From positions 19,923 to 83,922 of the IMG/VR virus record IMGVR_UViG_3300042521_003909: 64,000 nt of DNA; one strand, written 5' to 3'. Below, piece after piece: positions 31,833 through 63,375 of the stretch (its first letter is position 1; each line of letters starts with the position of its first letter). The position numbers and the translations under genes are program-made. This stretch comes from a virus. The notes below the pieces were generated by a model. It was given only the letters and a program-made list of their open reading frames with translations, was not told the DNA's origin and made no database searches.

Positions 31833-31862
31833 TTTTTCCCCCTCGGGGGGAGGACTTGGAGA
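31833..31862 (+). promoter_or_regulatory. T5C5 promoter-like element, first copy
   Basis: TTTTTCCCCC plus 20 nt ending GGACTTGGAGA; the predicted +1 A at 31863 is 57 nt upstream of the ATG at 31920. Confidence 0.6.
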
Positions 31863-31919
31863 AAAGCGTCAACAGTCGCTTCCACTACCCAAACTTTCGT
31901 GTAATCTACGAGCATCCCC

Positions 31920-32918
31920 ATGAACGAGCACTTCACACTAAGCGACATCCCCTTTGAGACTTTGCCGCCTGAGAGCATTCGTATGCTCTGTGAGGTGGCG
32001 GTTCGCCACATGGGTAGCGCTGCCTCCGCTAAGGACATGAGCAACCTGCCCCTTACCCCTGTTAGGGGCATGGACTACCGTATTCCTGCAACCATGCGGG
32101 CGTGTCAGAGTTACGGGTACGGACACGGAAACGGGGCTTGGCGTGGGCTAGAGGACAACAAAGAGGCTGTCCTTACTCTGCTTAAGGCAGTTATGCAGGA
32201 GAAGCAGAGTCAGCCTCGCACCCATGTCTCGCTGTCCACCAAAGACATCAGCCCGTCTGTTTTTACAAACCCGGATGTTCTGTCTTTTGTCTTGGACAAT
32301 GCTTCTAGTCTTGGCTGTGATCGTGGGGGTCAAAACGGAGTCATCGAATCATCGGTGTGGTCAGCGGTCAAGGTAGAGCAATGGTTGAGCCTCTTTGAGA
32401 CTCATCCTGCCCTTGTGGGCAAGGCTTTTGCAAGCCGTCCTGAACTGATCGGTCGCCTTTTTTCTCATGTTTTTCGTGGCTCCACTTCTGCACCCATAGC
32501 CATGAATATTGCCAAGACAGTCATTGGCTTCATGCACATCTACGACAACGATAGTCCTGCGATGCTCCATCGTTTTTGGGTGGAGAAAGACACTTCCAAT
32601 CACTACAAGGACGAGGATACTTACAGCGAACTTTTCATGCACCTGTGCGTGGTGTGTCGCAAAGATTCGGTCAACATGAAGCGCATTGCCGATGATTTGG
32701 AAAGTCAGAGCGTTGGCGGCAAAAAGACCCGCCGCCGTGATGCAGGGTGGATGACTATCTACCTGAACACCAAGTGGGATCAAGGTGACAAGGAGTTTGT
32801 CATTCGCTGCTGCCGCCTTGTTCCGCCTTTGTTCAACCTGCTTTACAGCACCGCAAAGGTGTCAGGAGAGATGCGTACCCTCAAGCGCATGTATCAGTTG
32901 AGTGGAGACACGGTGTGA
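31920..32918 (+). CDS. Hypothetical 332-residue protein
   Basis: MNEHFTLSDIPFETLPPESIRMLCEVAVRHMGS..., mostly helical, with no recognised motif. The C-terminus LKRMYQLSG echoes the YKHLYRLSG end of the 45384 RCC1-like protein. It has a T5C5 element and a TGTAATCTA box upstream. Confidence 0.5.
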   Translation: MNEHFTLSDIPFETLPPESIRMLCEVAVRHMGSAASAKDMSNLPLTPVRGMDYRIPATMRACQSYGYGHGNGAWRGLEDNKEAVLTLLKAVMQEKQSQPRTHVSLSTKDISPSVFTNPDVLSFVLDNASSLGCDRGGQNGVIESSVWSAVKVEQWLSLFETHPALVGKAFASRPELIGRLFSHVFRGSTSAPIAMNIAKTVIGFMHIYDNDSPAMLHRFWVEKDTSNHYKDEDTYSELFMHLCVVCRKDSVNMKRIADDLESQSVGGKKTRRRDAGWMTIYLNTKWDQGDKEFVIRCCRLVPPLFNLLYSTAKVSGEMRTLKRMYQLSGDTV

Positions 32919-32928
32919 CAAAAGTGTA

Positions 32929-32983
32929 ATCTATCGGAAAACCGCAAGAATAGTCTTGCACGATAGCATACATCGGCTATAAT
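32929..32983 (+). promoter_or_regulatory. Sigma70-type promoter with TGTAATCTA box
   Basis: TGTAATCTATCGGAAAA, then TTGCAC at 32956, 16-nt spacer, TATAAT at 32978. Drives the ATPase gene at 33003. Confidence 0.65.
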
Positions 32984-33002
32984 CAACAGTTGGGAACTTT
33001 TT

Positions 33003-33947
33003 ATGCCACGAACTTCTATTTCAGTTGAAGGAGTGCTTGGACACCTGAGCCTCAACCGTGAGGTTGAGTTCATGGTCCAAATGCTCGGCTGGAGTGAATC
33101 TCAGATTTTGGGTGCGATCACGACTGCTCACCCGGAACTTTCCAAAGATCAGCAGTCTCTTATTAATCACATTCGTGTCTGCCGTTCACGATACCGTGCA
33201 GATCAGAAAGAGAATGTCGAAGTGGGCGCACTTATTGGTGGCGGAACCGTTACATCCCTTGACAAGATTGCGGACAAGAAGTTGGTCCGCTTTGCATGTG
33301 GCATCGACCACATTGACATGCTTTGGGGATTCTCTGAAGATGGGAAGTCAAAAGGCTTTCCCCGTGGTCAGATCAGTCTGATTGCAGGAAGTCCCGGTGT
33401 GGGCAAGACTCGCGCAATGATTGCAGTTTGCGGAAAGATTACCGCACCGGATTACCGTCCCGCACTCAAGGCACTTTATTGGCAGAACGAGTTTGCACTT
33501 GAACAGTTCAAGACTGTTTCAAAGACGCAAATCAAGTCGGGCGCACGGTTTAGGTGTGGCGACATTCGCTCTCTCAAAGAGCAGTTGAAGGTGGTTGAAA
33601 AAGAAGTTCCTGACCTTGTGGTGGTTGATTCCATCCAAATGCTTGAAGAAGCAAAGAACAAAACAGGAATGGAAAGATGCATCGCTGCGTATAAATCTGC
33701 TGCGGTTGAAAGCAACATTCATGTCGTACTAGTTGGTCAGTTGAATAAAAAGGAACAGGTCGCAGGAAGCAGGGTGTTGGAACATCTTGTTGACTCGGTA
33801 TTTACGGCAGTTCGTGACCGTGAAACAGGAGGATTCGCCATCCGTTGTACGAAAAACAGATGGGGAATGTCAGGCATCCAAGGTTCTTTCAAGCACACAG
33901 AAAAAGGCATTGAGCCTGTCGGTGACATTACTCAAACGGAGGATTAA
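33003..33947 (+). CDS. RecA/KaiC/DnaB-like P-loop ATPase
   Basis: 314 residues. The catalytic part starts with FACGIDHIDMLWGFSEDGKSKGFPRGQISLIAGSPGVGKTRAMIAVC (Walker A GSPGVGKT), then KEVPDLVVVDSIQMLEEAK (Walker B) and VVLVGQLNKKEQVAGSRVLEHLVDSVFTAV. This is the RadA/KaiC/DnaB-helicase core. The N-terminal 90 residues are helical. It may be a replication or recombination ATPase; with the next genes (ClpS, MoxR) it begins a plus-strand run. Confidence 0.8.
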   Translation: MPRTSISVEGVLGHLSLNREVEFMVQMLGWSESQILGAITTAHPELSKDQQSLINHIRVCRSRYRADQKENVEVGALIGGGTVTSLDKIADKKLVRFACGIDHIDMLWGFSEDGKSKGFPRGQISLIAGSPGVGKTRAMIAVCGKITAPDYRPALKALYWQNEFALEQFKTVSKTQIKSGARFRCGDIRSLKEQLKVVEKEVPDLVVVDSIQMLEEAKNKTGMERCIAAYKSAAVESNIHVVLVGQLNKKEQVAGSRVLEHLVDSVFTAVRDRETGGFAIRCTKNRWGMSGIQGSFKHTEKGIEPVGDITQTED

Positions 33948-33949
33948 GC

Positions 33950-34228
33950 ATGAACAACGAAACAAGTTTGGTAAACAACAAGCCCACATTTAAGCCCCTT
34001 CCGATGTGGAAGGTGATTGTTCATAACGATGACATCAATACCTATAACCATGTCATTGGGACTTTCATGGAAATCGTGAAAATGGACAAGCAGACTGCCT
34101 ATGTCAAGACTGTTGAGGTCGATAAAGAAGGCTTGTCTATCGTTTCTGTCACTCACAAGGAGCACGCTGAACTTCTGAGAGATCAGTTGCAGTCAAAGGC
34201 TCTGACTGTCACGATTGAGCCTGATTGA
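33950..34228 (+). CDS. clpS: ClpS-like adaptor
   Basis: 92 residues. PMWKVIVHNDDINTYNHVIGTFMEIVKMDKQTAYVKTVEVDKEGLSIVSVTHKEHAELLRDQL follows ClpS (Y.V...NDD...M..V......V......A......V...G.........E.AE). ClpS hands N-degron substrates to the ClpAP/ClpCP protease. A phage copy could redirect host proteolysis. It starts 2 nt after the ATPase stop. Confidence 0.88.
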   Translation: MNNETSLVNNKPTFKPLPMWKVIVHNDDINTYNHVIGTFMEIVKMDKQTAYVKTVEVDKEGLSIVSVTHKEHAELLRDQLQSKALTVTIEPD

Positions 34229-34240
34229 TTACAAAACAAA

Positions 34241-34312: not shown

Positions 34313-34318
34313 TTCCTC

Positions 34319-34348
34319 TTTTTCCCCCTCGCCGGGGAAGTTTGGGGC
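34319..34348 (+). promoter_or_regulatory. T5C5 promoter-like element
   Basis: TTTTTCCCCC plus 20 nt ending AAGTTTGGGGC, +1 G at 34349, 57-nt leader to the MoxR gene. Confidence 0.65.
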
Positions 34349-34405
34349 GTTGGAACTCCAGCGGGGAGAACCATCATCGTTTACTACAGTTCGGAGAAAT
34401 AACAA

Positions 34406-35429: not shown

Positions 35430-35490
35430 CCCCCCGCAGGAGTCGGGGAGGGCGGTTCGCCGCTCTCCCCTTCTCCAACTTTTTCCCCCT
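35430..35490 (+). terminator. GC-rich hairpin overlapping promoter element
   Basis: GGGGAGGGCGG-TTCG-CCGCTCTCCCC with a UUCG loop after the MoxR stop; the next T-run is the start of the T5C5 element at 35480. Confidence 0.55.
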
Positions 35491-35509
35491 CCCCCGGTGG
35501 AGTTGGAAC
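35480..35509 (+). promoter_or_regulatory. T5C5 promoter-like element, leaderless
   Basis: TTTTTCCCCC plus 20 nt ending GGAGTTGGAAC; the ATG is the next base. Confidence 0.65.
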
Positions 35510-36766
35510 ATGGCAAAGAAGAAGAACACAACCTCTACGACCGCAACCGTCCCTGCTCCCGCTACGGACAACGCTCAGGATGTCGGACTTACTCCGTCTG
35601 AACTGAACGAACTCCGTGAGCGCATGAAGGGAATCGTGTTTCGCATGTACCGCTTCTTTCCCTTTTGGGGACTGCTTGCGGAGAACTGCAAGGTTTCCAT
35701 CGTGTCCGATAGCGCAGTCTCAACGGCTTGCGTTGACCGATACGGCAACATCCGTTTCGGAGCAAAGTTCTTCAAGGACTTGAGCGAGGATCAGGCGTTG
35801 TTCGTCCTTGCCCATGAGATCGGTCACGCTGCGTTCAGTCACATTGATCGCCGTCAGAGCCGTGATCCGTTCCTGTGGAATGTTGCGATTGACTACGCCA
35901 TCAATCTGCTCCTGAACGACAACTTTGGCGACTCCAAGTATCTCCCGAAGGGTGTGCTCCTTGACAAGAAGTACGCCGGAATGTCTGCGGAGGAGATTTA
36001 CGAGGATGTCATCAAGAACGCCAAAGTCGTGAAGGTCTACACGATGTCGGGCGACTTGGACTACAACGGTCAGGGCGACGAGGAAGGCGATGGCAATGGC
36101 ATCGTGGTTCGTGATCGCCGTGCAGAGAAGAAGCAGAGTGAGCAGGGATGGGATCAGGCAATCGCCTTGTCTCATGCCCGTGCCAAGATGCAGGGCGAGA
36201 TGCCTGAGTCTCTTGACCGTGAAGTGTCTCGCAAGTTGGAGAGCCGTGTTGATTGGCGTGAAGCCCTGAAGCAGTACCTCCGCTTTGGCGTGACTCGCAT
36301 CATGCGCGACCACTACACCTTCATGCCTCCCAATCGGCGGTTTGTCCATCAGGGGCTTTACCTTCCGTCCATGTACGGACATGACGCTCCGAAGATCGGC
36401 TTTGCCGTGGACACCTCCGGTTCGATGGGTGAAGATGAGATGTCTGCCGCAATCGCTGAGATTGACGAGATTCGCAGACAGTTCAACTGCCCTCTTTACC
36501 TTGTGGAATGCGATGCAGATGTTCACGCAGGGCGTTGGCTCACCCCGGAGGAGTCTTGCCCGACTGCCTTCAAGGGCGGCGGCGGTACGGACTTTCGCCC
36601 TGTCTTTGAGCACATCAAGGACGAGAAGGTTCCCGTGGACATCATGGTGTACCTCACCGATGGCTACGGAGAGTTCGGAGATCAGCCTGAAGTGGATGTT
36701 CTGTGGCTGACCACTACGAACCAAAAGCCTCCGTATGGTGAGCACATTCAGGTCAATGTCGGGTAA
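35510..36766 (+). CDS. VWA-like protein with metallopeptidase-type domain
   Basis: 418 residues, partner of the MoxR ATPase. An N-terminal domain has VLAHEIGHAAFSHIDRR (HExxH). The C-terminal VWA-like domain has IGFAVDTSGSMGEDEM (MIDAS DxSGS), FKGGGGTDFRPVFEHI and VDIMVYLTDGYGEFG. This architecture (DUF2201 plus VWA-like) is regularly found beside MoxR genes. The metal ion in the MIDAS probably binds client proteins. No Shine-Dalgarno is present at the start. Confidence 0.9.
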   Translation: MAKKKNTTSTTATVPAPATDNAQDVGLTPSELNELRERMKGIVFRMYRFFPFWGLLAENCKVSIVSDSAVSTACVDRYGNIRFGAKFFKDLSEDQALFVLAHEIGHAAFSHIDRRQSRDPFLWNVAIDYAINLLLNDNFGDSKYLPKGVLLDKKYAGMSAEEIYEDVIKNAKVVKVYTMSGDLDYNGQGDEEGDGNGIVVRDRRAEKKQSEQGWDQAIALSHARAKMQGEMPESLDREVSRKLESRVDWREALKQYLRFGVTRIMRDHYTFMPPNRRFVHQGLYLPSMYGHDAPKIGFAVDTSGSMGEDEMSAAIAEIDEIRRQFNCPLYLVECDADVHAGRWLTPEESCPTAFKGGGGTDFRPVFEHIKDEKVPVDIMVYLTDGYGEFGDQPEVDVLWLTTTNQKPPYGEHIQVNVG

Positions 36767-36799
36767 CATGGGGGTGAGTGGTGAAAGCCTCTCACCCTC

Positions 36800-36829
36800 T
36801 TTTTCCCCCTCCACGGGGGAGTTTGGAGA
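36800..36829 (+). promoter_or_regulatory. T5C5 promoter-like element
   Basis: TTTTTCCCCC plus 20 nt ending GAGTTTGGAGA. The leader to 36913 contains an AGCCGG/CCGGTT hairpin. Confidence 0.6.
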
Positions 36830-36912
36830 GTCAGCCGGATGTTCCGGTTGACAGTAGCACTTGAGAGCCGCAAACCAAGTCACATGACTTGTATAGGCGG
36901 CAAGGAGAAACG

Positions 36913-37616: not shown

Positions 37617-37624
37617 TACGGCTC

Positions 37625-37654
37625 TTTTTCCCCCTCTGTCTTTAGATTTAGGGG
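37625..37654 (+). promoter_or_regulatory. T5C5 promoter-like element
   Basis: TTTTTCCCCC plus 20 nt ending AGATTTAGGGG; far (163 nt) from the next gene, which has its own sigma70-type promoter. Confidence 0.5.
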
Positions 37655-37709
37655 GTCAGGGCAACATAAGAAAAATCAAGAATCTTCTTACATTTGTTAC
37701 TAACATCAC

Positions 37710-37737
37710 TTGACACAAATAAGAAGCGTTCTATGAT
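37710..37737 (+). promoter_or_regulatory. Sigma70-type promoter
   Basis: TTGACA, 16-nt spacer, TATGAT, 80 nt upstream of the AT-hook gene. Confidence 0.6.
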
Positions 37738-38926: not shown

Positions 38927-38954
38927 TTGACAACGCAGAGAGCGATGCTATAAT
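38927..38954 (+). promoter_or_regulatory. Consensus sigma70 promoter
   Basis: TTGACA, 16-nt spacer, TATAAT, drives the 39006 gene and perhaps tmRNA. Confidence 0.75.
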
Positions 38955-42183: not shown

Positions 42184-42219
42184 GGGGTTGAGGGTTCGCC
42201 CTCCCCCTCACCCTTTTAC

Positions 42220-42249
42220 TTTTTCCCCTTAGGGGGAACAGGTTGTGGC
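42220..42249 (+). promoter_or_regulatory. T5C5 promoter-like element
   Basis: TTTTTCCCCT plus 20 nt ending AGGTTGTGGC, +1 A at 42250, 13-nt leader with AAGGA to uvsE. Confidence 0.65.
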
Positions 42250-42262
42250 AGCAAGGACGACC

Positions 42263-43180
42263 ATGCCCATCCGACACCTCGGTTATGCCTGTCAGAACAT
42301 GACTCTTGGGGCTACGAAGCCCGCCTCCAAGCGTGTCTTTACGGACAGAACGCTGCGGATGGATGGTTTCAGCATCCGCAGGGTCAATGAACTCGCACTT
42401 TCCAACTCACGCGATCTTCTGAAGATCATGTGGTGGAATGTCGAGAACGGCATTCACTTCTTCCGCATTGGTTCGGGAATGTTTCCTTTCATGGATCACC
42501 CGGAACTGAAGTACGGGATTGACGATCTTGCCACCGCACACACCATCAAGGGTGTGTTGGCAGGAGTTGGGGAACTTGCTCGTAAGAACAGCATTCGACT
42601 GTCGATGCACCCGGGACCTTACACATGTCTTGCATCTCCTGACGAGTCTGTTGTTGACAAGTCATTGCTGTGCATGGAGATGCACTCGCTTGTGGGCGAT
42701 CTGCTTGGGATGGATGACTTCCCAATCAACATCCATATGGGTGGCGTCTATGACGGCAAGGAAGCATGTGCGGAGCGTTTTGTCCACAACTTCTCACGAC
42801 TTTCTGAAGGAGTCAGGCGCAGAATGACCCTTGAGAACGATGACAAAGAGGGCATGTGGACAATGCGCGATCTGCTTCCTGTTCACGAAAAGACAGGCAT
42901 TCCACTTGTTCTTGACATTCATCATCACTCTCTCAACTCAGGTGGTGATGATCTGAAAGTTGCTGCTGACATTGCTCTTTCAACTTGGGGTGAAAAAACT
43001 CCAAAAGTTCACTATAGTGAACCAAGAGAGGGCAGCCGTCCACAAGCACATGCTGACTTCATTGTGAATGAGATTCCTGAACTTTGTTCAGTCAGACAAT
43101 ATGATGTGATGATTGAGGCAAAGCAGAAGGAACTTGCCCTTCTCAAATATCGAAACCTCTTTTTCCCCCCAACCGCCTGA
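42263..43180 (+). CDS. uvsE: UV damage endonuclease (UvdE family)
   Basis: 305 residues. The ATG at 42263 is preferred; the GTG at 42245 lies inside the promoter element. Motifs of the UvdE TIM barrel: IRHLGYACQNMTLG at the N-terminus, FFRIGSGMFPFMDHP, RLSMHPGPYTCLAS, INIHMGGVYDGKEA, LENDDKEGMW, LVLDIHHHSLN and KVHYSEPREG. The enzyme nicks 5' of UV photoproducts using bound metal ions. The 3' end overlaps the next promoter element (FFPPTA). Confidence 0.92.
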   Translation: MPIRHLGYACQNMTLGATKPASKRVFTDRTLRMDGFSIRRVNELALSNSRDLLKIMWWNVENGIHFFRIGSGMFPFMDHPELKYGIDDLATAHTIKGVLAGVGELARKNSIRLSMHPGPYTCLASPDESVVDKSLLCMEMHSLVGDLLGMDDFPINIHMGGVYDGKEACAERFVHNFSRLSEGVRRRMTLENDDKEGMWTMRDLLPVHEKTGIPLVLDIHHHSLNSGGDDLKVAADIALSTWGEKTPKVHYSEPREGSRPQAHADFIVNEIPELCSVRQYDVMIEAKQKELALLKYRNLFFPPTA

Positions 43181-43189
43181 GTTTAGACC
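43160..43189 (+). promoter_or_regulatory. T5C5 element, leaderless, inside uvsE 3' end
   Basis: TTTTTCCCCC plus 20 nt ending GAGTTTAGACC, then ATG. Its bases also encode the last residues of uvsE. Confidence 0.65.
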
Positions 43190-44311
43190 ATGCCAGCACG
43201 CATCTACGACAATCTTTCCGTTCGCATCGCAAGCGTCAGCAACTCTCACTCCGCTGCTCTTATTGGTAGTTCCATTCTTGGTTGGGGTAGTTCTGCCAAG
43301 AACAAGTTGGACTTCCCGAAGGGCGAGTATCAGAGCGTTGCCTGTGGCTTCTCTCACTCCGCTGCCGTTGATACGAGTGGTCGCATTGTGACCATCGGAA
43401 ACGCGCTTGGCGGCAAGTTGAACAGCGGAACGCTGAACAGTCGTGGACAGTTCAAGACTGTGCGCTGCTCTCGCAACTACACCGCCGCTACGCTTGACTG
43501 CTCCGATGGCAAGTATCGCATCGCCGTCTTTGGCGATCAGCGTCAGTACAGCGTTCTTCCCTCTACGGTGTATTCAAAGACCTCAAAGGACGAAGGTGTG
43601 TTCACCTTTGATTCTGCGATTGGAGACTTTGACATCTCTGATGATGGAACCATTGTGATTGACATGGGCAACGGCAGCGTGACCGTGGTCGGAGCAAGCA
43701 TGTACACGGTCAATGGTCTGACTGCACAAGCGGTCAAGGTGCGTTGCGGCGATACGATGAACACCACGACCGTTGCCATCATTCACACGACCGATCAGAA
43801 GGCTTTTGTTCTCACGCGCAATCACCACGGCATGAAGGTGATGACCGAGATTGCGGGTGATGTGACCGATGTTTTCTGCGGGAATAAGTATTACGGCTAT
43901 GTTGTTGCTTGCCGTGAGATCAATCTCGTTGGAGATCATTTCGGAAACATTCGTATTCCCGATGGTTGGCGCATTGAAGGTGTTGATGGTGGGAACAACG
44001 GGTACGCCATCCGTGTGATCGACAACGATTCGGATAAGCACCTTGTTCTTGTTGGCGACAATACGAAGAACAAGGAACTCGTCATCAATGGCTACGATCA
44101 TCGTGAATGCCCCCGTAAGGACGGCATGATCTACGAGATTCGTGAGGCAAAGGTTGCGAAGGCAAAGCCCACGGTGACTGCCGCAGTCAGTACGATTGCT
44201 GAAGATGGCGGCGAGGATTCCGATTACGAGTGTGAGCCTTGCAAGTTCCGCTTTGCAGCATCATCTCCTGTTTGTCCACTCTGCAAGAACGAGGTGACTG
44301 CCAATGTTTGA
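43190..44311 (+). CDS. RCC1-like beta-propeller protein with zinc ribbon
   Basis: 373 residues. RCC1-type repeats: SNSHSAALIGSSILGWGSSAKNKLDFPKGEYQSVACGFSHSAAVDTSGRIVTIGN and KTVRCSRNYTAATLDCSDGKYRIAVFGDQ. The C-terminus, YECEPCKFRFAASSPVCPLCKNEV, is a CxxC...CxxC zinc ribbon. A propeller plus ribbon suggests a protein-binding platform. A second RCC1-like gene lies at 45384. Confidence 0.8.
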   Translation: MPARIYDNLSVRIASVSNSHSAALIGSSILGWGSSAKNKLDFPKGEYQSVACGFSHSAAVDTSGRIVTIGNALGGKLNSGTLNSRGQFKTVRCSRNYTAATLDCSDGKYRIAVFGDQRQYSVLPSTVYSKTSKDEGVFTFDSAIGDFDISDDGTIVIDMGNGSVTVVGASMYTVNGLTAQAVKVRCGDTMNTTTVAIIHTTDQKAFVLTRNHHGMKVMTEIAGDVTDVFCGNKYYGYVVACREINLVGDHFGNIRIPDGWRIEGVDGGNNGYAIRVIDNDSDKHLVLVGDNTKNKELVINGYDHRECPRKDGMIYEIREAKVAKAKPTVTAAVSTIAEDGGEDSDYECEPCKFRFAASSPVCPLCKNEVTANV

Positions 44312-44617: not shown

Positions 44618-44618
44618 C

Positions 44619-44648
44619 TTTTTCCCCCTTTAGGCATGGGTTTCCGGC
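44619..44648 (+). promoter_or_regulatory. T5C5 element, leaderless
   Basis: TTTTTCCCCC plus 20 nt ending GGTTTCCGGC, then ATG. Confidence 0.65.
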
Positions 44649-45347: not shown

Positions 45348-45353
45348 CTCGTC

Positions 45354-45383
45354 TTTTTCCCCCTTTAGCGGTAGGTTTGTTGC
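45354..45383 (+). promoter_or_regulatory. T5C5 element, leaderless
   Basis: TTTTTCCCCC plus 20 nt ending GGTTTGTTGC, then ATG. Confidence 0.65.
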
Positions 45384-46601: not shown

Positions 46602-46616
46602 AACGAACTTCCTCAC

Positions 46617-48189: not shown

Positions 48190-48196
48190 TCTTCTC

Positions 48197-49147: not shown

Positions 49148-49149
49148 TC

Positions 49150-49179
49150 TTTTTCCCCCGCACCGCAGAGGCTTTGAGC
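49150..49179 (+). promoter_or_regulatory. T5C5 element, leaderless
   Basis: TTTTTCCCCC plus 20 nt ending GGCTTTGAGC, then ATG. Confidence 0.65.
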
Positions 49180-49862: not shown

Positions 49863-49865
49863 TGC

Positions 49866-49895
49866 TTTTTCCCCCTTGCAGGGGGAGGTTGTGGC
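49866..49895 (+). promoter_or_regulatory. T5C5 element, leaderless
   Basis: TTTTTCCCCC plus 20 nt ending AGGTTGTGGC, then ATG. Starts 3 nt after the previous stop. Confidence 0.65.
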
Positions 49896-51124: not shown

Positions 51125-51136
51125 AGCCAGTTGCCC

Positions 51137-51166
51137 TTTTTCCCCCTCCCCCGGCGGGTTTAGGGC
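51137..51166 (+). promoter_or_regulatory. T5C5 promoter-like element
   Basis: TTTTTCCCCC plus 20 nt ending GGTTTAGGGC, +1 A at 51167, 57-nt leader. Confidence 0.65.
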
Positions 51167-51223
51167 AGACGGCTTGAACGGCAAGCCTGATTCCAAAGTC
51201 CACTACTAGAAAGCAGGACTGAT

Positions 51224-52245: not shown

Positions 52246-52283
52246 GAATCGGGGAGGGGCGCAAGCCCCTCCCTGCCCTTTTT
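52246..52283 (+). terminator. Terminator hairpin whose U-tract is the next T5C5 element
   Basis: GGGGAGGGGC-gcaa-GCCCCTCCC, then TGCCC and TTTTT. The T-run at 52279 is shared with the promoter-like element. Confidence 0.65.
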
Positions 52284-52308
52284 CCCCCTGCCACCGGAGA
52301 CTTGAATC
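52279..52308 (+). promoter_or_regulatory. T5C5 element, leaderless
   Basis: TTTTTCCCCC plus 20 nt ending AGACTTGAATC, then ATG. Confidence 0.65.
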
Positions 52309-52491
52309 ATGGACAAACTTCTCAAGGAAATCAACCTGAACGAATCGGAACTGATTGCTGCTCTTGAGGCGGCTCGTATCGCTCTCTCCGATGAAGATGT
52401 GTTCACGAAGTTGTCGGAAAACTTGGATATGTCGGGAGAAGCCTTGAGCGATTTGCTCAAGAAGATTGAGCGTTTCATGGGGATGGAATGA
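52309..52491 (+). CDS. Small helical protein
   Basis: 60 residues, MDKLLKEINLNESELIAALEAARIAL..., acidic and all-helical. No family recognised. Confidence 0.55.
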   Translation: MDKLLKEINLNESELIAALEAARIALSDEDVFTKLSENLDMSGEALSDLLKKIERFMGME

Positions 52492-52536
52492 GAAGCCTTT
52501 ACTCCAAGTCCACCAAGACGAGGCGGGTAAGCGACC

Positions 52537-52566
52537 TTTTTCCCCCGTCAAAGACGGCTTTTCTGA
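52537..52566 (+). promoter_or_regulatory. T5C5 promoter-like element
   Basis: TTTTTCCCCC plus 20 nt ending GGCTTTTCTGA; weaker second block; 45-nt leader with GGAGG. Confidence 0.5.
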
Positions 52567-52611
52567 CGACGACGAGTCCTGCTTTTTCAATCACAACCGG
52601 AGGCAAGAAGA

Positions 52612-53004: not shown

Positions 53005-53014
53005 GCAGTTCCTC

Positions 53015-53044
53015 TTTTTCCCCCTTGCGGGACAAGGTTGAGGC
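53015..53044 (+). promoter_or_regulatory. T5C5 element, leaderless
   Basis: TTTTTCCCCC plus 20 nt ending AGGTTGAGGC, then ATG. Confidence 0.65.
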
Positions 53045-53542
53045 ATGGCTACACGCAGCACAATCGGAATGGTTCGTCTTACAGACGGCAAGATCAACGC
53101 GATCTATTGCCATTGGGACGGATATCCCTCCAACAACGGTCTTTGCCTGTACCGGAACTACAATAGCCACGATGGGGCTTGGTCGCTCATGTTGCTTGGC
53201 GACCTATCATCTCTCCGCAGCAAGATCGGAGAGAAGCATGATCTGTTTGATCTTGGCGGTGTTGAGAATCGTGGCGTAACGAATGATTGGTGCGATGCTT
53301 ACGGGCGTGATCGTGGCGATGATGGTTGCGAGATGAAAACCTTTGACAACATTCGGGAGTTCAAGAAGTGGTCGAAGGGTGTTGGTGCTGACTATCTGTA
53401 CCTGTTCAAGAATGACGATCAATGGTGGGTGAATAGCCCTTACGAGTCCACCGGATTCAAGAAACTTGAGAAGGTTCTTGTTGCAGAGGGGGTCATTGAT
53501 CCGATTGAGGAACTGATCGAAGTGGCGAAGAAGTCGCAGTAG
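53045..53542 (+). CDS. Conserved phage protein (MATRSTIG...IYCHWDGYPSNNG family)
   Basis: 165 residues. MATRSTIGMVRLTDGKINAIYCHWDGYPSNNGLCLYRNYNSHD is a very common phage hypothetical family start. It ends GVIDPIEELIEVAKKSQ, the shared C-terminal tail that is not part of the usual family, which suggests a tag added to an existing fold. Confidence 0.75.
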   Translation: MATRSTIGMVRLTDGKINAIYCHWDGYPSNNGLCLYRNYNSHDGAWSLMLLGDLSSLRSKIGEKHDLFDLGGVENRGVTNDWCDAYGRDRGDDGCEMKTFDNIREFKKWSKGVGADYLYLFKNDDQWWVNSPYESTGFKKLEKVLVAEGVIDPIEELIEVAKKSQ

Positions 53543-53553
53543 GCAACTGCCTC

Positions 53554-53583
53554 TTTTTCCCCTCACCGGAATGGCTTGGAACA
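53554..53583 (+). promoter_or_regulatory. T5C5 promoter-like element
   Basis: TTTTTCCCCT plus 20 nt ending GGCTTGGAACA; about 92-nt leader to 53676. Confidence 0.5.
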
Positions 53584-53675
53584 CATGGGTGCGGCAGGAG
53601 TTCTCTGACGAGGCGAGTTGGCGTGTTGCTGACTTGTGCACACCTGACCGCACCCTCCAAACAAAGGAAACAACA

Positions 53676-54400: not shown

Positions 54401-54409
54401 CCAGCCGCC

Positions 54410-54439
54410 TTTTTCCCCCTCGCAGGGGGAGGTTGTGGC
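54410..54439 (+). promoter_or_regulatory. T5C5 element, leaderless
   Basis: TTTTTCCCCC plus 20 nt ending AGGTTGTGGC, then ATG. Confidence 0.7.
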
Positions 54440-54919
54440 ATGAAGCAACAGACTACCGCCTACCATTGGACTGCCGAGCAGGGTAAGAATGGCCGCTTTG
54501 AGTACGCAAAGCGCAAGACTGCAAGGGCTGTCAAAGGACAACTCCCACCCGGATGGTCTTACAAGATCATGGCTCCGTATATCGGTGGAGGAGCGCATTG
54601 GTCGATCAAGGTCGATTACTTCAATCCAGTCGGGTCTGGAACGCGACAATGGGTGACGCTGCGTTGGTTCCCGTGTGACGAGAATTGGGATACCGTTTCA
54701 ATGTTCACGGTTCATGCCGTGATTCGACCTGACAGGCACACGAATGAAATGTATGTCAATCAGTCGTTTCAAGAATGGACGAAGGACATCGACAAGGTAA
54801 AGAGTGTCGTGCAGCAGATTTTCGATGGATTGATTCCTGATCCCCTGATGCAACTTCATGCACGGGCAAAGAAGGCAGCCAAGCAGTTTTCCCCCACCGA
54901 TCCCGAGGTTGAGCCATGA
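54440..54919 (+). CDS. Hypothetical protein with DPLxxLxxxAK motif
   Basis: 159 residues. It resembles the 49896 protein in general style (basic start, QLPPGWSYKIM, WVTLRWFP). GLIPDPLMQLHARAKKAAKQ is the shared tail. The final 12 residues (FSPTDPEVEP) are read through the next T5C5 element and may be passengers. Confidence 0.6.
   Translation: MKQQTTAYHWTAEQGKNGRFEYAKRKTARAVKGQLPPGWSYKIMAPYIGGGAHWSIKVDYFNPVGSGTRQWVTLRWFPCDENWDTVSMFTVHAVIRPDRHTNEMYVNQSFQEWTKDIDKVKSVVQQIFDGLIPDPLMQLHARAKKAAKQFSPTDPEVEP
54886..54915 (+). promoter_or_regulatory. T5C5 element, leaderless, inside a gene
   Basis: GTTTTCCCCC plus 20 nt ending AGGTTGAGCC, then ATG; within the 54440 gene's 3' end. Confidence 0.6.
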
Positions 54920-55503: not shown

Positions 55504-55518
55504 ACTAGCCAGTCGCCC

Positions 55519-55548
55519 GTTTTCCCCCACCGCCCACCGCTTTGGAGC
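55519..55548 (+). promoter_or_regulatory. T5C5 promoter-like element
   Basis: GTTTTCCCCC plus 20 nt ending GCTTTGGAGC, +1 A at 55549 then GAAAGGAC, a 13-nt leader. Confidence 0.65.
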
Positions 55549-55561
55549 AGAAAGGACAACT

Positions 55562-56101: not shown

Positions 56102-56142
56102 AGACGACGGAAGGGTGGCGGGATGAAACACTCCCGCCGCCC

Positions 56143-56172
56143 GTTTTCCCCCTTCACCGGAGGCTTTGGAGC
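56143..56172 (+). promoter_or_regulatory. T5C5 element, leaderless
   Basis: GTTTTCCCCC plus 20 nt ending GGCTTTGGAGC, then ATG. Confidence 0.65.
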
Positions 56173-56604
56173 ATGAACGACACGAACCGAACTGTCAAGG
56201 TCACGATCACGGACATGAAGATCAAGTCTGCTCCTGAGTGGACGCTTGATGTCACCGTTGATGCTGAGGTTGAATGGGTCAAGGGTGGCATCGGCTCCTA
56301 CGAGTTCTGGGGAGCGCAATGCTGCGACAACAGCGCAGGATGGGAGTGGCAGTCTTGGGGCTTTGATCTCATCGTTGCCAAGCGCATCGACGGATCGCAC
56401 ATCCTGATGGTTTCGCAGCCCATTTACTCTGTTGACAATGCTCGTCGTCTGCTTGAGGATTACGGCATCGACCTGTTCTCTTGGCTGAATGAACTGAACA
56501 ATGAGGCAAACAACACCATTGAGGATGCCATCACCAACGAGGTCGCCAAGTTGGATGACAACCCGTGTGCAATGCCTGAACCGCTATTTCCCGAGGAGGA
56601 CTGA
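56173..56604 (+). CDS. Hypothetical 143-residue protein
   Basis: MNDTNRTVKVTITDMKIKSAPEWTLDVTVDAEVEWVKGGIGSYEFWGAQ, beta-rich start, helical acidic end. Co-transcribed with 56608 (3-nt gap). Confidence 0.55.
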   Translation: MNDTNRTVKVTITDMKIKSAPEWTLDVTVDAEVEWVKGGIGSYEFWGAQCCDNSAGWEWQSWGFDLIVAKRIDGSHILMVSQPIYSVDNARRLLEDYGIDLFSWLNELNNEANNTIEDAITNEVAKLDDNPCAMPEPLFPEED

Positions 56605-56808: not shown

Positions 56809-56819
56809 GGCAGCCGCAC

Positions 56820-56849
56820 TTTTTCCCCCTCACCGGGGAAGGTTGGGTC
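56820..56849 (+). promoter_or_regulatory. T5C5 element, leaderless
   Basis: TTTTTCCCCC plus 20 nt ending AGGTTGGGTC, then ATG. Confidence 0.65.
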
Positions 56850-57254
56850 ATGGAGATCAAGAAGGACGCATTCCGGCACTTGATATACGAGCGTATGCAG
56901 CAACTTGTCTCATCTGTTAGCGCAAGCATTGACGCGCTCAACGAACTCCTCCCCATGCTTGAGGGAGATGAGATCGACAAGGATGCAATCTGCTATGAGA
57001 CAGACGAGTTTCGCGCTGTTATGAAGGACGCATCGGGAGGCAAACACATTGCCCTCCTCCTGCATCCAAACGGACAAACAATGCACCGCAGGTTCTACTG
57101 CTGGTATTTCGGGGTAGACAGAAATGTCCACGACAACGGATGGCTCATCCTGACCCACCGACATCCAAGCCTGTTCGCTAGGGGATGCATCATGCGCCCA
57201 AACGACTTCACCAAGAGCATGGCACTGCTCAAGACAATGGAGGACACCAAGTGA
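56850..57254 (+). CDS. Hypothetical 134-residue protein
   Basis: MEIKKDAFRHLIYERMQQLVSSVSAS... helical N-half, then a strand-rich region with several His. GTGA coupling to the next gene. Confidence 0.55.
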   Translation: MEIKKDAFRHLIYERMQQLVSSVSASIDALNELLPMLEGDEIDKDAICYETDEFRAVMKDASGGKHIALLLHPNGQTMHRRFYCWYFGVDRNVHDNGWLILTHRHPSLFARGCIMRPNDFTKSMALLKTMEDTK

Positions 57255-57475: not shown

Positions 57476-57486
57476 TCCAGTCGCCC

Positions 57487-57516
57487 TTTTTCCCCTCGCA
57501 CCGGGAGGCTTGCACC
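57487..57516 (+). promoter_or_regulatory. T5C5 element, leaderless GTG
   Basis: TTTTTCCCCT plus 20 nt ending GGCTTGCACC, then GTG as start. Confidence 0.6.
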
Positions 57517-57819
57517 GTGAAGATCAAACACGCACTGGCTGAACTCAAGCGGATGAAGAAGGATTACGGTGAAGATTGCGACATCTTCTACTTCGCCGTT
57601 GCTCCTGACTTGGTGATGGACGCAGGCGAGACATTCAACAAGCACATCTCCGTCTATTGGGCGCAAAGAATCCTCAAGGACATCAGCGTTGAGGAGGAAA
57701 CCGTTGGTCATGTATTTCAGGCGTTTGATCGCATGGTTGACGAGCGCGTGAGCCTGTTCAATCCTGATCCGTTGGAAGAACTACACGACACAGCAAAGGC
57801 AAAGAGGAAGAAGAAATAA
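57517..57819 (+). CDS. Hypothetical protein with DPLEEL tail
   Basis: 100 residues. MKIKHALAELKRMKKDYGEDCDIFYFAV... ends FNPDPLEELHDTAKAKRKKK. TAATG overlap with the next gene, which carries the same type of tail. Confidence 0.6.
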   Translation: MKIKHALAELKRMKKDYGEDCDIFYFAVAPDLVMDAGETFNKHISVYWAQRILKDISVEEETVGHVFQAFDRMVDERVSLFNPDPLEELHDTAKAKRKKK

Positions 57820-58127: not shown

Positions 58128-58138
58128 TCCAGCCGCCC

Positions 58139-58168
58139 TTTTTCCCCCTCTCCCCTTCCCTTTGGGGC
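58139..58168 (+). promoter_or_regulatory. T5C5 promoter-like element
   Basis: TTTTTCCCCC plus 20 nt ending CCCTTTGGGGC, +1 A at 58169, 48-nt leader with GGAGACAGG. Confidence 0.65.
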
Positions 58169-58216
58169 ATCGCCTCCCGGTGTGGGAAGCGGACGCAAAC
58201 GCAAGAGGAGACAGGT

Positions 58217-58647: not shown

Positions 58648-58685
58648 ATGAGGGGAGGGGCGAAAGCCCCTCCCCTTCCCTTTTT
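58648..58685 (+). terminator. Terminator hairpin fused to T5C5 element
   Basis: GAGGGGAGGGGC-gaaa-GCCCCTCCCCTTCCC then TTTTT; the T-run at 58681 is the start of the element. Confidence 0.7.
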
Positions 58686-58710
58686 CCCCCGCAGTCGGAG
58701 TATTTCAGGC
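58681..58710 (+). promoter_or_regulatory. T5C5 element, leaderless
   Basis: TTTTTCCCCC plus 20 nt ending TATTTCAGGC, then ATG. Confidence 0.65.
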
Positions 58711-58818
58711 ATGGACACCCTCATCATCATGCTCATCGGATCGAACATCGCGCTGCTTGGCTACCTGTGCCACAAGGACATGAAGCCCAAGCCCAAGCGG
58801 AAGAAGGCGACCGCATGA
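58711..58818 (+). CDS. Small membrane protein
   Basis: 35 residues: MDTLIIMLIGSNIALLGYLC then a Lys/Pro tail. ATGA overlap with the next gene. Confidence 0.55.
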   Translation: MDTLIIMLIGSNIALLGYLCHKDMKPKPKRKKATA

Positions 58819-59196: not shown

Positions 59197-59245
59197 GTCC
59201 TTTCTGCGAAGGGAGCGTTATCCGAAGTGATGCGCTCCCTTCCTC

Positions 59246-59275
59246 TTTTTCCCCCTCGCGCCGTCCCTTTGGGAT
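59246..59275 (+). promoter_or_regulatory. T5C5 promoter-like element
   Basis: TTTTTCCCCC plus 20 nt ending CCCTTTGGGAT, +1 G, leader with GAAAGGAG. Confidence 0.65.
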
Positions 59276-59290
59276 GACGAAAGGAGAATC

Positions 59291-59687: not shown

Positions 59688-59735
59688 CTCTTGCGTCCTG
59701 CGGGGCGGGGTGATCCTTTCCCCCGCCCCGCTGCC

Positions 59736-59765
59736 TTTTTCCCCCCACCGTGGTAGACTTTCAGC
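59736..59765 (+). promoter_or_regulatory. T5C5 promoter-like element
   Basis: TTTTTCCCCC plus 20 nt ending GACTTTCAGC, then AGAAAGGAA leader. A GCGGGGCGGGG/CCCCGCCCCGC hairpin precedes. Confidence 0.65.
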
Positions 59766-59779
59766 AGAAAGGAAACGCA

Positions 59780-59968: not shown

Positions 59969-60019
59969 CGAACCATCTTGCAGGGGAGGGGTTGCATCAC
60001 GAGCGCGCCCCTCCCCACC

Positions 60020-60049
60020 TTTTTCCCCCGCCGCCTTATCCTTTGGGGC
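60020..60049 (+). promoter_or_regulatory. T5C5 promoter-like element
   Basis: TTTTTCCCCC plus 20 nt ending TCCTTTGGGGC, then AACAGAAAGGA. Confidence 0.7.
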
Positions 60050-60065
60050 AACAGAAAGGATCAGA

Positions 60066-60383: not shown

Positions 60384-60437
60384 AGCCGTACAGTCCCCCG
60401 GATAGGGCGGGAGGGTTGACGAAAGTCCCCTCCCGCC

Positions 60438-60467
60438 TTTTTCCCCTTCCATCGTCGTTTTTGGGGC
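60438..60467 (+). promoter_or_regulatory. T5C5 promoter-like element
   Basis: TTTTTCCCCT plus 20 nt ending GTTTTTGGGGC, then AGAAAGGAA. Confidence 0.7.
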
Positions 60468-60482
60468 AGAAAGGAACGCAAG

Positions 60483-60740: not shown

Positions 60741-60756
60741 AACAAGGCAGCCGCCC

Positions 60757-60786
60757 TTTTTCCCCCTCTCCCCGTCCCTTTAGGGT
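60757..60786 (+). promoter_or_regulatory. T5C5 promoter-like element
   Basis: TTTTTCCCCC plus 20 nt ending CCCTTTAGGGT, +1 A, leader with AGAAAGGA. Confidence 0.7.
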
Positions 60787-60816
60787 ACAGCCCCAAAGGG
60801 CAGAAAGGATCGCAAG

Positions 60817-61192: not shown

Positions 61193-61228
61193 CGAATGGG
61201 GGAAGGGGCGAAAGCCCCTCCCCTTTTT
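61193..61228 (+). terminator. Terminator hairpin fused to T5C5 element
   Basis: GGGGGAAGGGGC-gaaa-GCCCCTCCCC runs straight into TTTTT at 61224, the clearest shared terminator/promoter junction. Confidence 0.75.
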
Positions 61229-61253
61229 CCCCCGCACCGCATGGAGTTCAGGC
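61224..61253 (+). promoter_or_regulatory. T5C5 element, leaderless
   Basis: TTTTTCCCCC plus 20 nt ending GGAGTTCAGGC, then ATG. Confidence 0.7.
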
Positions 61254-61439
61254 ATGGACAGCAGGATGCGAAACGGAATCATCGGAGCAGTCGTCACGCT
61301 TTGCGTAGCGTTCGCCGTGTCAGCGGGAGCGATGTGGGTGTTTGGTGTTTGGATGGGATGTAGTCCCGTGATTGTTGCTGGCTTTCTTGGAGTCGGTTAC
61401 GCCTGTAACGGCTACTTCAAGCCACCGAACAAGCGGTAA
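61254..61439 (+). CDS. Small two-helix membrane protein
   Basis: 61 residues; helices GIIGAVVTLCVAFAVSAGAM and VIVAGFLGVGYACNGY. No family recognised. Confidence 0.55.
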   Translation: MDSRMRNGIIGAVVTLCVAFAVSAGAMWVFGVWMGCSPVIVAGFLGVGYACNGYFKPPNKR

Positions 61440-61511
61440 CGCACCGCACCGAAGCACCGCACCCACCGTAACGCATGGGGGAAGAAAGAAGGGGAGAGGA
61501 GTACATCCCTC

Positions 61512-61541
61512 TTTTTCCCCCACAAGGGGCATTTTTGGGGC
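61512..61541 (+). promoter_or_regulatory. T5C5 promoter-like element
   Basis: TTTTTCCCCC plus 20 nt ending ATTTTTGGGGC, then AACAGAAAGGA. Confidence 0.7.
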
Positions 61542-61560
61542 AACAGAAAGGATCAGACGC

Positions 61561-61752: not shown

Positions 61753-61788
61753 GCACCAATCACGCGCATACATGGCGGCTGGCATCCC

Positions 61789-61818
61789 TTTTTCCCCCGG
61801 AAAGCGTCCTCTTGGGGT
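61789..61818 (+). promoter_or_regulatory. T5C5 promoter-like element
   Basis: TTTTTCCCCC plus 20 nt ending CTCTTGGGGT, +1 G, then AGAAAGGAG. Confidence 0.65.
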
Positions 61819-61838
61819 GCAGAAAGGAGCCAGTCGCC

Positions 61839-61997: not shown

Positions 61998-62018
61998 CGC
62001 AAGATACTCCCGCCGCCC

Positions 62019-62048
62019 TTTTTCCCCCTCCCGTCGCCCCTTTGGGTC
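62019..62048 (+). promoter_or_regulatory. T5C5 promoter-like element
   Basis: TTTTTCCCCC plus 20 nt ending CCCTTTGGGTC, +1 A, leader with AGAAAGGA. Confidence 0.7.
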
Positions 62049-62078
62049 AGCCCAACAGGGCAGAAAGGACGCAGCAAG

Positions 62079-62282: not shown

Positions 62283-62346
62283 CGGTGGCAACCGCCCCGA
62301 AGGGGGAGCCGCAAGGCTCCCCCTTCACCGTTTACTCCCGCCGCCC

Positions 62347-62376
62347 TTTTTCCCCCGCTCATCGTCCCTTTAGGGC
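62347..62376 (+). promoter_or_regulatory. T5C5 promoter-like element
   Basis: TTTTTCCCCC plus 20 nt ending CCCTTTAGGGC, +1 A. A GGGGGAGCC-gcaa-GGCTCCCCC hairpin lies at 62299-62325. Confidence 0.7.
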
Positions 62377-62419
62377 ATCAACCCAAACGCCCCAAACGGG
62401 GCAGATAGGACGCAGCAAG

Positions 62420-62899
62420 ATGGACAAGTCGCAGAAGATCGCAGCCCTCGCCGCCCTCATCAGCAGCAGCCCCGACAAGGCGGAGTTCGCCGCCTCCCTC
62501 ATGGGTGCGCTCGTCAAGGGCAACCCGACCCCGAAGCAGTCGGAGTGGATCGACCGCCTCATCAACGAGGCGCAGAACCCCCTCCCCTCGCTCAACCTGC
62601 ACGGGCTGGTGGAGTCGTTCCGCCTCGCCGCCCTCACGGTGAAGTTCCCGAAGGTCGTGATGTCGGTGGACGGGCAGGATGTCACGCTCTCGTACACCCG
62701 CCCCGACTCCGAGAAGGCGAAGCCCGAGAACAAGGACACCGTGGGCGTGGCATCGGGCAAGTGGGGCGACCCCGCCGCCAAGTGGTACGGGCGCATCGGT
62801 GCGGATGGCGTGTTCAAGCCCGGAAAGGACGCGACCCCCGCCGTGGCGGAAGCCCTCGCCGCCCTTGACCCCAACGCCCTGCCGTGGAAGAAGCGGTAA
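62420..62899 (+). CDS. Hypothetical 159-residue protein
   Basis: MDKSQKIAALAALISSSPDKAEFAASLMGALVKGNPTPKQSEWIDRLIN, helical, then a beta-rich half (MSVDGQDVTLSYTRPDSEKAK...KWYGRIGADGVFKPG). Highly GC-rich with codon bias unlike the left end. Function unknown; similar proteins occur in phages. Confidence 0.6.
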   Translation: MDKSQKIAALAALISSSPDKAEFAASLMGALVKGNPTPKQSEWIDRLINEAQNPLPSLNLHGLVESFRLAALTVKFPKVVMSVDGQDVTLSYTRPDSEKAKPENKDTVGVASGKWGDPAAKWYGRIGADGVFKPGKDATPAVAEALAALDPNALPWKKR

Positions 62900-62912
62900 G
62901 GCAACCCAAACC

Positions 62913-62942
62913 CCGAAGGGGGAGCCGCAAGGCTCCCCCTTC
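62913..62942 (+). terminator. GC-rich hairpin
   Basis: AAGGGGGAGCC-gcaa-GGCTCCCCCTT after the 62420 gene, same hairpin as at 62299 and 63319. Confidence 0.6.
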
Positions 62943-62967
62943 CCCATTGCGTTCGATCCCGCTGCCC

Positions 62968-62997
62968 TTTTTCCCCCGCACTCACTCCCTTTGGAGT
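62968..62997 (+). promoter_or_regulatory. T5C5 promoter-like element
   Basis: TTTTTCCCCC plus 20 nt ending CCCTTTGGAGT, leader with AGAAAGGA. Confidence 0.65.
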
Positions 62998-63027
62998 GTT
63001 CCAACGGAACAGAAAGGACGCAGCAAG

Positions 63028-63315
63028 ATGACCAAGTGGATCGTTAGCACCCAGTACATGGAGAACTACGCCGAGGACGGCGGGGACTACTGGAAGGCGA
63101 AGGGTGGCTCCGACTACGCCGTGACCGCCGCTACCGCCGAGGAAGCGGAGCGCATCGTGCAGGAGAAGAAGTGCCACAAGACCCGCTACTCCGAGGAGTA
63201 CATCTACGGAGCAACCATCCCCTACGACGAGTGGGTGGCTGAGTTGAAGAAGTCGTGCAAGTTCGAGGACTCGCTCAAGTTCTGGATGGAGTCCGTCGAA
63301 ACGGTGGAAGCGTGA
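63028..63315 (+). CDS. Conserved small phage protein
   Basis: 95 residues. TKWIVSTQYMENYAEDGGDYWKAKGGSDYAV is a recurrent phage pattern (W.V.TQ..ENY....G..YWK.KGG..Y.V), followed by an EYIYGATIPYDEWVAEL motif. Role unknown. Confidence 0.7.
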   Translation: MTKWIVSTQYMENYAEDGGDYWKAKGGSDYAVTAATAEEAERIVQEKKCHKTRYSEEYIYGATIPYDEWVAELKKSCKFEDSLKFWMESVETVEA

Positions 63316-63345
63316 GCGAGGGGAGCCGCAAGGCTCCCCCGCCTC

Positions 63346-63375
63346 TTTTTCCCCCTGCACAGCCGTACAAAGAAG
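63346..63375 (+). promoter_or_regulatory. Degenerate T5C5 element
   Basis: TTTTTCCCCC is present, but the following 20 nt lack the TTTGGGGC-like block and no gene starts nearby. The 63316-63802 gap also holds a GAATCCATCCAAACCA direct repeat (63530 and 63551), a GGGATACCTTAG direct repeat (63652 and 63749) and a TGTAATCTA box at 63683. No convincing gene. Confidence 0.4.

Follow-up and report, generated by a model that had tools for sequence, protein, structure and literature searches.

Element sequence, number, and spacing

This study analyzed a 64,000-nucleotide stretch of viral DNA, hereafter the window, which comprises positions 19923 to 83922 of the 83,922-base IMG/VR record IMGVR_UViG_3300042521_003909, a fragment. 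Between positions 31832 and 63376 of the window, a short element, C[T/G]TTTTCCCC[C/T]-N13-TT-N5-[+1], occurs in 40 copies, all of them on the plus strand (Table 1), and no copy was found on the minus strand of the same region. The copies form an array that amounts to almost one element per gene. The G+C content of the window rises from 34% on the left to 59% at the right end, and the array coincides with the GC-rich part.

The original prediction, which was made from the letters of the window, described about 40 copies of a two-block element, and the counts bear this out. With up to one mismatch allowed, the T5C5 core gave 45 matches, compared with 5.8 ± 2.6 in dinucleotide shuffles; block 1 together with TT at the fixed spacing was found in 38 of the 40 copies, compared with a mean of 0.015 and a maximum of 1 in 200 dinucleotide shuffles of positions 31800 to 64000. 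Exact TTTTTCCCCC is present in 33 copies, a final T in four (42220, 53554, 57487, and 60438), and GTTTT in three (54886, 55519, and 56143). Block 1, which is half C, spans positions -31 to -21 and is centered near -26, and block 2 is centered near -6. The only near-invariant columns are C(-31), T(-29 to -26), C(-25 to -21), and TT(-7,-6); a C precedes the block in 39 of 40 copies, and the TT at -7/-6 is highly significant (p = 6e-43). Positions -3 to -1 favor RGC and position +1 favors A, and the 13 nucleotides separating the blocks are nearly free. The predicted second block therefore exists, but TTTGGGGC describes it less well than does TT(-7,-6)..RGC(-1), since only the TT is near-invariant.

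Start codons, leaders, and hairpins

The start codon lies exactly at +1 in 18 copies with ATG and in one with GTG, and an ATG occupies +1 in 18 of 41 pattern matches (p = 4e-20). Nearly all the remaining copies are leadered, with 13 to 104 nucleotides before the start codon, and most leaders carry a Shine-Dalgarno (SD) sequence of the AGAAAGGA type; the exception is the copy at 37625, which has no open reading frame (ORF) within 160 nucleotides. These results agree with the earlier claim that either a start codon or an A- or G-led leader follows, and the motif was not equally frequent away from gene starts.

We pooled the ATG offsets from +1 for ORFs of at least 45 codons in four contigs (the window and its relatives G002, G010, and G011, described below). 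The offset was 0 in 49 cases and otherwise at least 9, mostly at least 13, and there were no cases at offsets of 1 to 8 or of -12 to -1. This bimodal distribution suggests that the 5' end of the transcript lies at +1, in which case genes would either lack a leader or have one long enough for an SD sequence.

Leaders often form a hairpin just 3' of +1, clearly in G010 (median z -2.35) and weakly in the window. A strong terminator-like hairpin lies upstream of approximately 40% of the elements and is missing from the other 60% or so, so that many units look like a promoter, one gene, and a hairpin; the upstream hairpins are probably the ends of the preceding units. An anti-SD sequence ending in CCUUUCU is no more than suggested by the SD type and the GC content.

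Conservation and replacement in related phages

Contigs G001 and G004 have almost the same sequence as the window. In a sister phage (G002, G008, and G009), which shares approximately 75% nucleotide identity with the window, 33 of 36 orthologous genes are preceded by the element. Between the sister phage and the window, the block columns are 97-100% identical except at -30 and -21, whereas the spacer and flanks are approximately 40% identical, which is near saturation. At position -30 the window prefers T (38:3) and the sister phage G (22:17; p = 2e-6), a genome-wide one-base shift.

T5C5 is absent altogether from more distant phages of the same gene order (MoxR 85% and DUF2201 72-73%). Three of these contigs, G010, G011, and G012, carry TCCCGAAWCCCGAAAACKGG-N5-GGTTAGGGC-[+1] instead, and we refer to this version as dialect B and to the T5C5 element of the window and sister phage as dialect A. 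G010 has approximately 40 dialect B copies on one strand of a 35-kb block, past which its GC content falls back to 33-37%. Among the orthologues of window element genes, 17 of 23 in G010 and 11 of 14 in G011 have the dialect B element in place, and they usually keep the class, with the ATG directly at +1 or behind a leader. Dialect B also retains GTT-N5-[+1] while the box is replaced. A third group (G013-G015, MoxR 61-62%) has ACCGGCGCGCA at -30 to -20, with 16 copies in G013; its proximal part differs, which makes the equivalence of the start site less certain. The 5.7-kb contig L109 (MoxR 64%) contains eight copies of RTCCCGGCA, two of which lie 11 nucleotides before an ATG, and we tentatively regard this as a fourth dialect.

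Patterns A and B are mutually exclusive among the contigs, save for stray single matches to the relaxed A pattern, and multi-copy matches to the element in IMG/VR came from kin only. Two singleton contigs from the pattern scan (L036 and L037) share no genes, and their matches are attributed to chance. The SNF2-like helicase of G010, used as a query for the rest of its genome, matched only its own contig.

Host promoters and candidate readers

Sigma70-type promoters combine TTGACA and TATAAT 16-18 nucleotides apart, with TAnnnT at -12 to -7, and sigma54 promoters follow TGGCACG-N4-TTGCW, with GG at -24 and GC at -12. The column frequencies of the element contain no TAnnnT at -12 to -7. A scan for the sigma70 consensus revealed 18 sites in 32 kb, the same as in shuffles, none of which supplies the elements; the sigma54 scan yielded 8 weak matches, compared with 10.9 expected, and none at an element. 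The assertion that the element is neither a sigma70 nor a sigma54 promoter was thus upheld. Good sigma70-like sites at 37710 and 38927 indicate that the host polymerase may serve some genes. The gene at 37818-38540, which has both a T5C5 element and the sigma70-like promoter at 37710, encodes a histone H1-like protein in which GRPK AT-hooks are repeated and the C-terminal domain is conserved.

We scanned 257 Gb of bacterial and archaeal genomes (84,980 species) for T5C5-TT-GC-ATG, a pattern of 17 fixed bases. The scan revealed 33 single matches in unrelated taxa, approximately the chance number, and no second copy of the element in any genome within the fetched stretches. Because the count in host genomes is at chance level and multi-copy matches in IMG/VR occur only in kin, the signal is very probably not host-encoded.

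Block 1, at -31 to -21, falls beyond the footprint of T7-type promoters, which extends from about -17 to +6. The T7-type polymerase family PF00940 had no match on the array contigs, but the control genomes gave none either. A distant relative of 183 kb, G016, shares MoxR (51%), DUF2201, and a tRNA-intron endonuclease (64%) with the array phages. It encodes a 2034-residue fusion of beta and the N-terminal part of beta' with an intein, together with a separate beta'-C subunit; among described enzymes, the closest is the virion-associated polymerase of Salmonella phage Arash (32%). The intein of this fusion gene (L116:11782-17883, minus strand) contains a LAGLIDADG domain. A beta-like gene is also present in G018, another distant relative. 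In view of these genes, it is plausible that the array phages also encode a polymerase; the array boxes are not used by G016 or Arash. The sigma factors of Arash had no match on the array contigs, and the only match between Arash and array-phage proteins was to a phosphoesterase-like family.

The first gene of the array, 31920-32918, was considered as the specificity factor because its product is very divergent between dialects (26% vs 55%), but its structural model is helical-repeat-like (predicted local distance difference test [pLDDT] 67) and had no significant fold match, so this role is not supported. The model of the protein at 36913-37569 was too poor to use (pLDDT 38).

Table 1. Copies of the two-block element and two contrasting sigma70-like sites in the window
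Feature	Position	Strand	Associated start or gene
Element 1	31832..31863	+	leadered; gene 31920-32918
Element 2	34318..34349	+	leadered; MoxR-like ATPase 34406-35428
Element 3	35479..35510	+	ATG at +1; DUF2201 metallopeptidase/VWA 35510-36766
Element 4	36799..36830	+	leadered; gene 36913-37569
Element 5	37624..37655	+	no ORF start within 160 nucleotides; next gene AT-hook protein 37818-38540
Element 6 (TTTTTCCCCT)	42219..42250	+	leadered; UvdE 42263-43180
Element 7	43159..43190	+	ATG at +1; RCC1-like 43190-44311
Element 8	44618..44649	+	ATG at +1; gene 44649-45347
Element 9	45353..45384	+	ATG at +1; gene 45384-46601
Element 10	46616..46647	+	ATG at +1; gene 46647-47063
Element 11	47451..47482	+	ATG at +1; gene 47482-48189
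Element 12	48196..48227	+	ATG at +1; gene 48227-48556
Element 13	49149..49180	+	ATG at +1; gene 49180-49449
Element 14	49865..49896	+	ATG at +1; gene 49896-50423
Element 15	50362..50393	+	ATG at +1; gene 50393-51076
Element 16	51136..51167	+	leadered; TIGR03299 gene 51224-52243
Element 17	52278..52309	+	ATG at +1; gene 52309-52491
Element 18	52536..52567	+	leadered; gene 52612-53004
Element 19	53014..53045	+	ATG at +1; gene 53045-53542
Element 20 (TTTTTCCCCT)	53553..53584	+	uncertain gene assignment; overlapped by ORF 53571-54053
Element 21	54409..54440	+	ATG at +1; gene 54440-54919
Element 22 (GTTTTCCCCC)	54885..54916	+	ATG at +1; DnaQ-like gene 54916-55503
Element 23 (GTTTTCCCCC)	55518..55549	+	leadered; gene 55562-56101
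Element 24 (GTTTTCCCCC)	56142..56173	+	ATG at +1; gene 56173-56604
Element 25	56819..56850	+	ATG at +1; gene 56850-57254
Element 26 (TTTTTCCCCT)	57486..57517	+	GTG at +1; gene 57517-57819
Element 27	58138..58169	+	leadered; gene 58217-58636
Element 28	58680..58711	+	ATG at +1 (short ORF) or leadered gene 58815-58997
Element 29	59245..59276	+	leadered; gene 59291-59542
Element 30	59735..59766	+	leadered; gene 59780-59968
Element 31	60019..60050	+	leadered; gene 60066-60383
Element 32 (TTTTTCCCCT)	60437..60468	+	leadered; gene 60483-60740
Element 33	60756..60787	+	leadered, 5' hairpin; gene 60817-61182
Element 34	61223..61254	+	ATG at +1; gene 61254-61439
Element 35	61511..61542	+	leadered; gene 61561-61752
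Element 36	61788..61819	+	leadered; gene 61839-61997
Element 37	62018..62049	+	leadered, 5' hairpin; gene 62079-62282
Element 38	62346..62377	+	leadered; gene 62420-62899
Element 39	62967..62998	+	leadered, 5' hairpin; gene 63028-63315
Element 40	63345..63376	+	usual place without second block
Sigma70-like site TTGACA-N16-TATGAT	37710..37737	+	upstream of AT-hook protein 37818-38540; contrast to array
Sigma70-like site TTGACA-N16-TATAAT, perfect	38927..38954	+	contrast to array

Other genes

Within the array region, a ClpS-like adaptor (33950-34228) is conserved in G010, G011, and G016. A tRNA-bearing region contains a phage-encoded transfer-messenger RNA (39338-39694; predicted tag ANESLMAVAA) and, at 40129-40977, a tRNA-Gln(TTG) split in the anticodon loop by a 773-nucleotide group I intron with an HNH endonuclease (40178-40855) that is 91% identical in G010 and 64% in G016. 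Two tRNA-like halves (GGGAGAT... from approximately 40047 and ...ATCTCCC near 41050) appear to flank this gene, an arrangement that resembles one split tRNA inside another.

A run of sugar and glycan genes of approximately 25 kb (glycosyltransferases, epimerases, a split transketolase, and a LegC/PseC-like aminotransferase) spans L003 1-20000 and window 1-5452. A PurA-like adenylosuccinate synthetase of 336 amino acids (4442-5452, minus strand) falls under all curated cut-offs and has a weak PurZ match; a link to modified bases would be conjectural. A CsrA-like protein is encoded at 11999-12262 (E 1e-10, below cut-off), and G013 also has a CsrA-like gene. Many proteins of the low-GC region (G010 at approximately 49-69 kb; window 5952-6479, minus strand, and 26048-26710) start with MNWYKxAQ or similar, and also KISKSDWxxIG. 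These N-termini sit on otherwise different proteins, including glucose-6-phosphate dehydrogenase, and are possibly a targeting or processing signal; one such protein has homologues in jumbo or huge phages (XacN1 and metagenomic phages of 485-595 kb).

Interpretation and alternatives

We favor, with a probability of about 0.68, the reading that the copies are one-promoter-per-gene signals with a start at +1 for a putative phage-encoded factor. Each copy would be the core of a promoter serving mostly one gene, in which block 1 (C[T/G]TTTTCCCC[C/T], -31 to -21) and block 2 (TT at -7/-6 and RGC to -1) would be recognized jointly at a rigid distance. Transcription would begin at +1, and the mRNA would then be either leaderless, with its start codon at +1, or short-leadered with a AGAAAGGA-type ribosome-binding site and sometimes a 5' hairpin. 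The reader of the element is likely phage-encoded and could be the holoenzyme of a phage RNA polymerase or a specificity factor that works on the host enzyme; this factor would have diverged along with the whole array, so that in relatives the same genes have unrelated upstream boxes. That the elements act as promoters at all, whether from +1 or from a start further upstream, appears highly probable. The original prediction preferred a promoter to a terminator or repeat, and the fixed spacing with saturated spacer divergence between orthologues, the bimodal ATG positions, the absence of a hairpin from more than half of the copies, and the unrelated boxes in relatives support that preference.

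Several observations weigh against transcription that always starts at +1 under a phage-encoded factor. An SD-like purine stretch is present at -13 to -9 in copies with the ATG directly at +1, but not in leadered ones; the mean SD duplex energy in the window was -6.9 kcal/mol in the former and -1.9 kcal/mol in the latter. The difference was significant in three contigs (p = 1e-4, 1.4e-3, and 1.5e-4) and not in the small G011 set. If transcription always started from +1, this stretch would lie outside the mRNA, which conflicts with a simple leaderless start, and its presence suggests that the spacer is transcribed at least sometimes. Two explanations are conceivable: transcripts that read through from upstream may also be translated for the ATG-direct genes, or a portion of the transcripts may begin before +1. 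Copies that follow a strong upstream hairpin had SD stretches no weaker than the others, which gives read-through no specific support. A further point is the G+C-rich composition of the presumed melting region. Moreover, no sigma, Rpb1 domain 5, or Rpb2 domain 6 match above the cut-off was obtained on the array contigs, which are fragments; the earlier suggestion of a phage RNA polymerase or dedicated sigma factor accordingly keeps the standing of a proposal, with a polymerase gene seen only in the distant relative.

The upstream SD-like stretch is what most weakens the leaderless reading, and its chief rival is built on this stretch. In that rival, block 1 would be a -10-like box, transcription would start between the blocks (at about -20 to -14), and the leader would contain block 2 as well as the SD-like purines. 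The restriction of the stretch to ATG-direct copies fits this alternative, as do the early promoters of jumbo-phage virion polymerases, which are highly conserved boxes of approximately 10 nucleotides with a start 6 nucleotides downstream (PMC5312081, PMC7598289). However, it does not account for a TT that is invariant and at a constant distance in both classes, for the exact position of the ATG, or for the complete lack of ATGs from +2 to +9 and immediately before +1, and we consider it unlikely.

A still less probable explanation is an element acting at the RNA level, as a translation-enhancing or RNA-processing site on polycistronic transcripts that would be cut at or near +1. Consistent with such a site are the constant distance to the start codon in about half of the copies, the SD-like stretch, and the tight packing of genes; nevertheless, leadered copies lie 13-104 nucleotides from the ATG and have their own SD sequence, no common RNA fold was seen, and block 1 is entirely different in relatives at the same genes.

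Adoption by the phage of a promoter for an alternative host sigma factor is very improbable. Some genes are probably transcribed by the host enzyme, given the good sigma70-like sites in the phage region, but the genome scan returned 33 singletons with no second copy in the fetched stretches, and the boxes are wholly different among related phages. Intrinsic terminators (a stable hairpin and then a T-run as terminator tail) or mobile repeats can practically be dismissed: scans list several copies as terminator-like, but a significantly stable upstream hairpin precedes only about 40% of them, dialect B lacks the T-run while its upstream hairpins are equally strong, the linkage is to gene starts, and the orthologous spacers and flanks are saturated and too diverged for repeats.

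We tentatively raise the possibility, to which we give less than even odds, that the array represents an undescribed phage initiation system, with a rigid two-block promoter that is not AT-rich before almost every gene of a region of approximately 32 kb. At least three, and probably four, unrelated boxes would have been swapped among syntenic relatives while the promoter position, the gene order, and the leaderless or leadered class were kept; such wholesale replacement would point to a fast-evolving phage-encoded specificity subunit. Phage-specific promoters are markers of dedicated transcription machinery, and this element is readily recognizable, is attached to nearly all genes of the region, and has several versions that differ in sequence but occupy orthologous genes. 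The dialects therefore offer a natural experiment on the joint change of a polymerase or specificity factor and its dozens of sites, and finding the factor would yield promoter/factor pairs with unrelated boxes. The array is also a sequence handle to related phages and their genes.

Comparison with known systems

In T4 middle promoters, a MotA box at about -30 replaces the -35 element and the TAnnnT -10 box is kept. The array resembles them in having a phage-specific upstream box at about -30 and a fixed distance but has no TAnnnT -10 box; a MotA homologue was not searched for.

Virion multisubunit RNA polymerases read the early promoters of the jumbo phages phiKZ, AR9, and phiR1-37 (PMC5312081, PMC7598289). 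These promoters are single AT-rich boxes of approximately 10 nucleotides centered at -10 with a start 6 nucleotides downstream (PMC5312081, PMC7598289), and leaders in AR9 have at least 26 nucleotides. Like them, the array has a conserved, phage-specific box of approximately 10 nucleotides before many genes, which is findable from sequence, varies by phage, and is unlike host promoters. In contrast, the array has two G/C-containing blocks near -26 and -6 and includes leaderless genes, and its fragments yielded no polymerase gene; its box, half C and centered at -26 from the inferred start, does not fit the AT-rich box of this class. The middle promoters of phiKZ have a weak AT-rich motif centered at -24 (PMC7598289). 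The array shares with them conserved DNA centered near -24 to -26 from the start, but its box is near-invariant and pyrimidine-rich and is joined by a second block.

The start-associated sequences (SAS) and extended SAS (ESAS) of cluster K mycobacteriophages consist of one 13-bp block, GGGATAGGAGCCC, near the start codon, for which the authors propose a role in translation (PMC3203893). Both systems have many same-orientation copies directly upstream of start codons, are conserved (SAS across subclusters), and are absent from host genomes; the array differs in its two rigidly spaced blocks, its leaders in half of the copies, and the replacement of the block sequence between relatives, and GGGATAGGAGCCC had 0 matches with up to two mismatches. 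Salmonella phage Arash encodes an RNA polymerase and an RpoS-like sigma factor (PMC10585845). Its polymerase is the nearest described relative of the enzyme of G016, itself only distantly related to the array phages, and its own repeated motif, TGGTATAAGTA, is unlike the array. Phage-specific promoters are already known; the unusual feature of this array is the in-place replacement of the recognition box across all of it.

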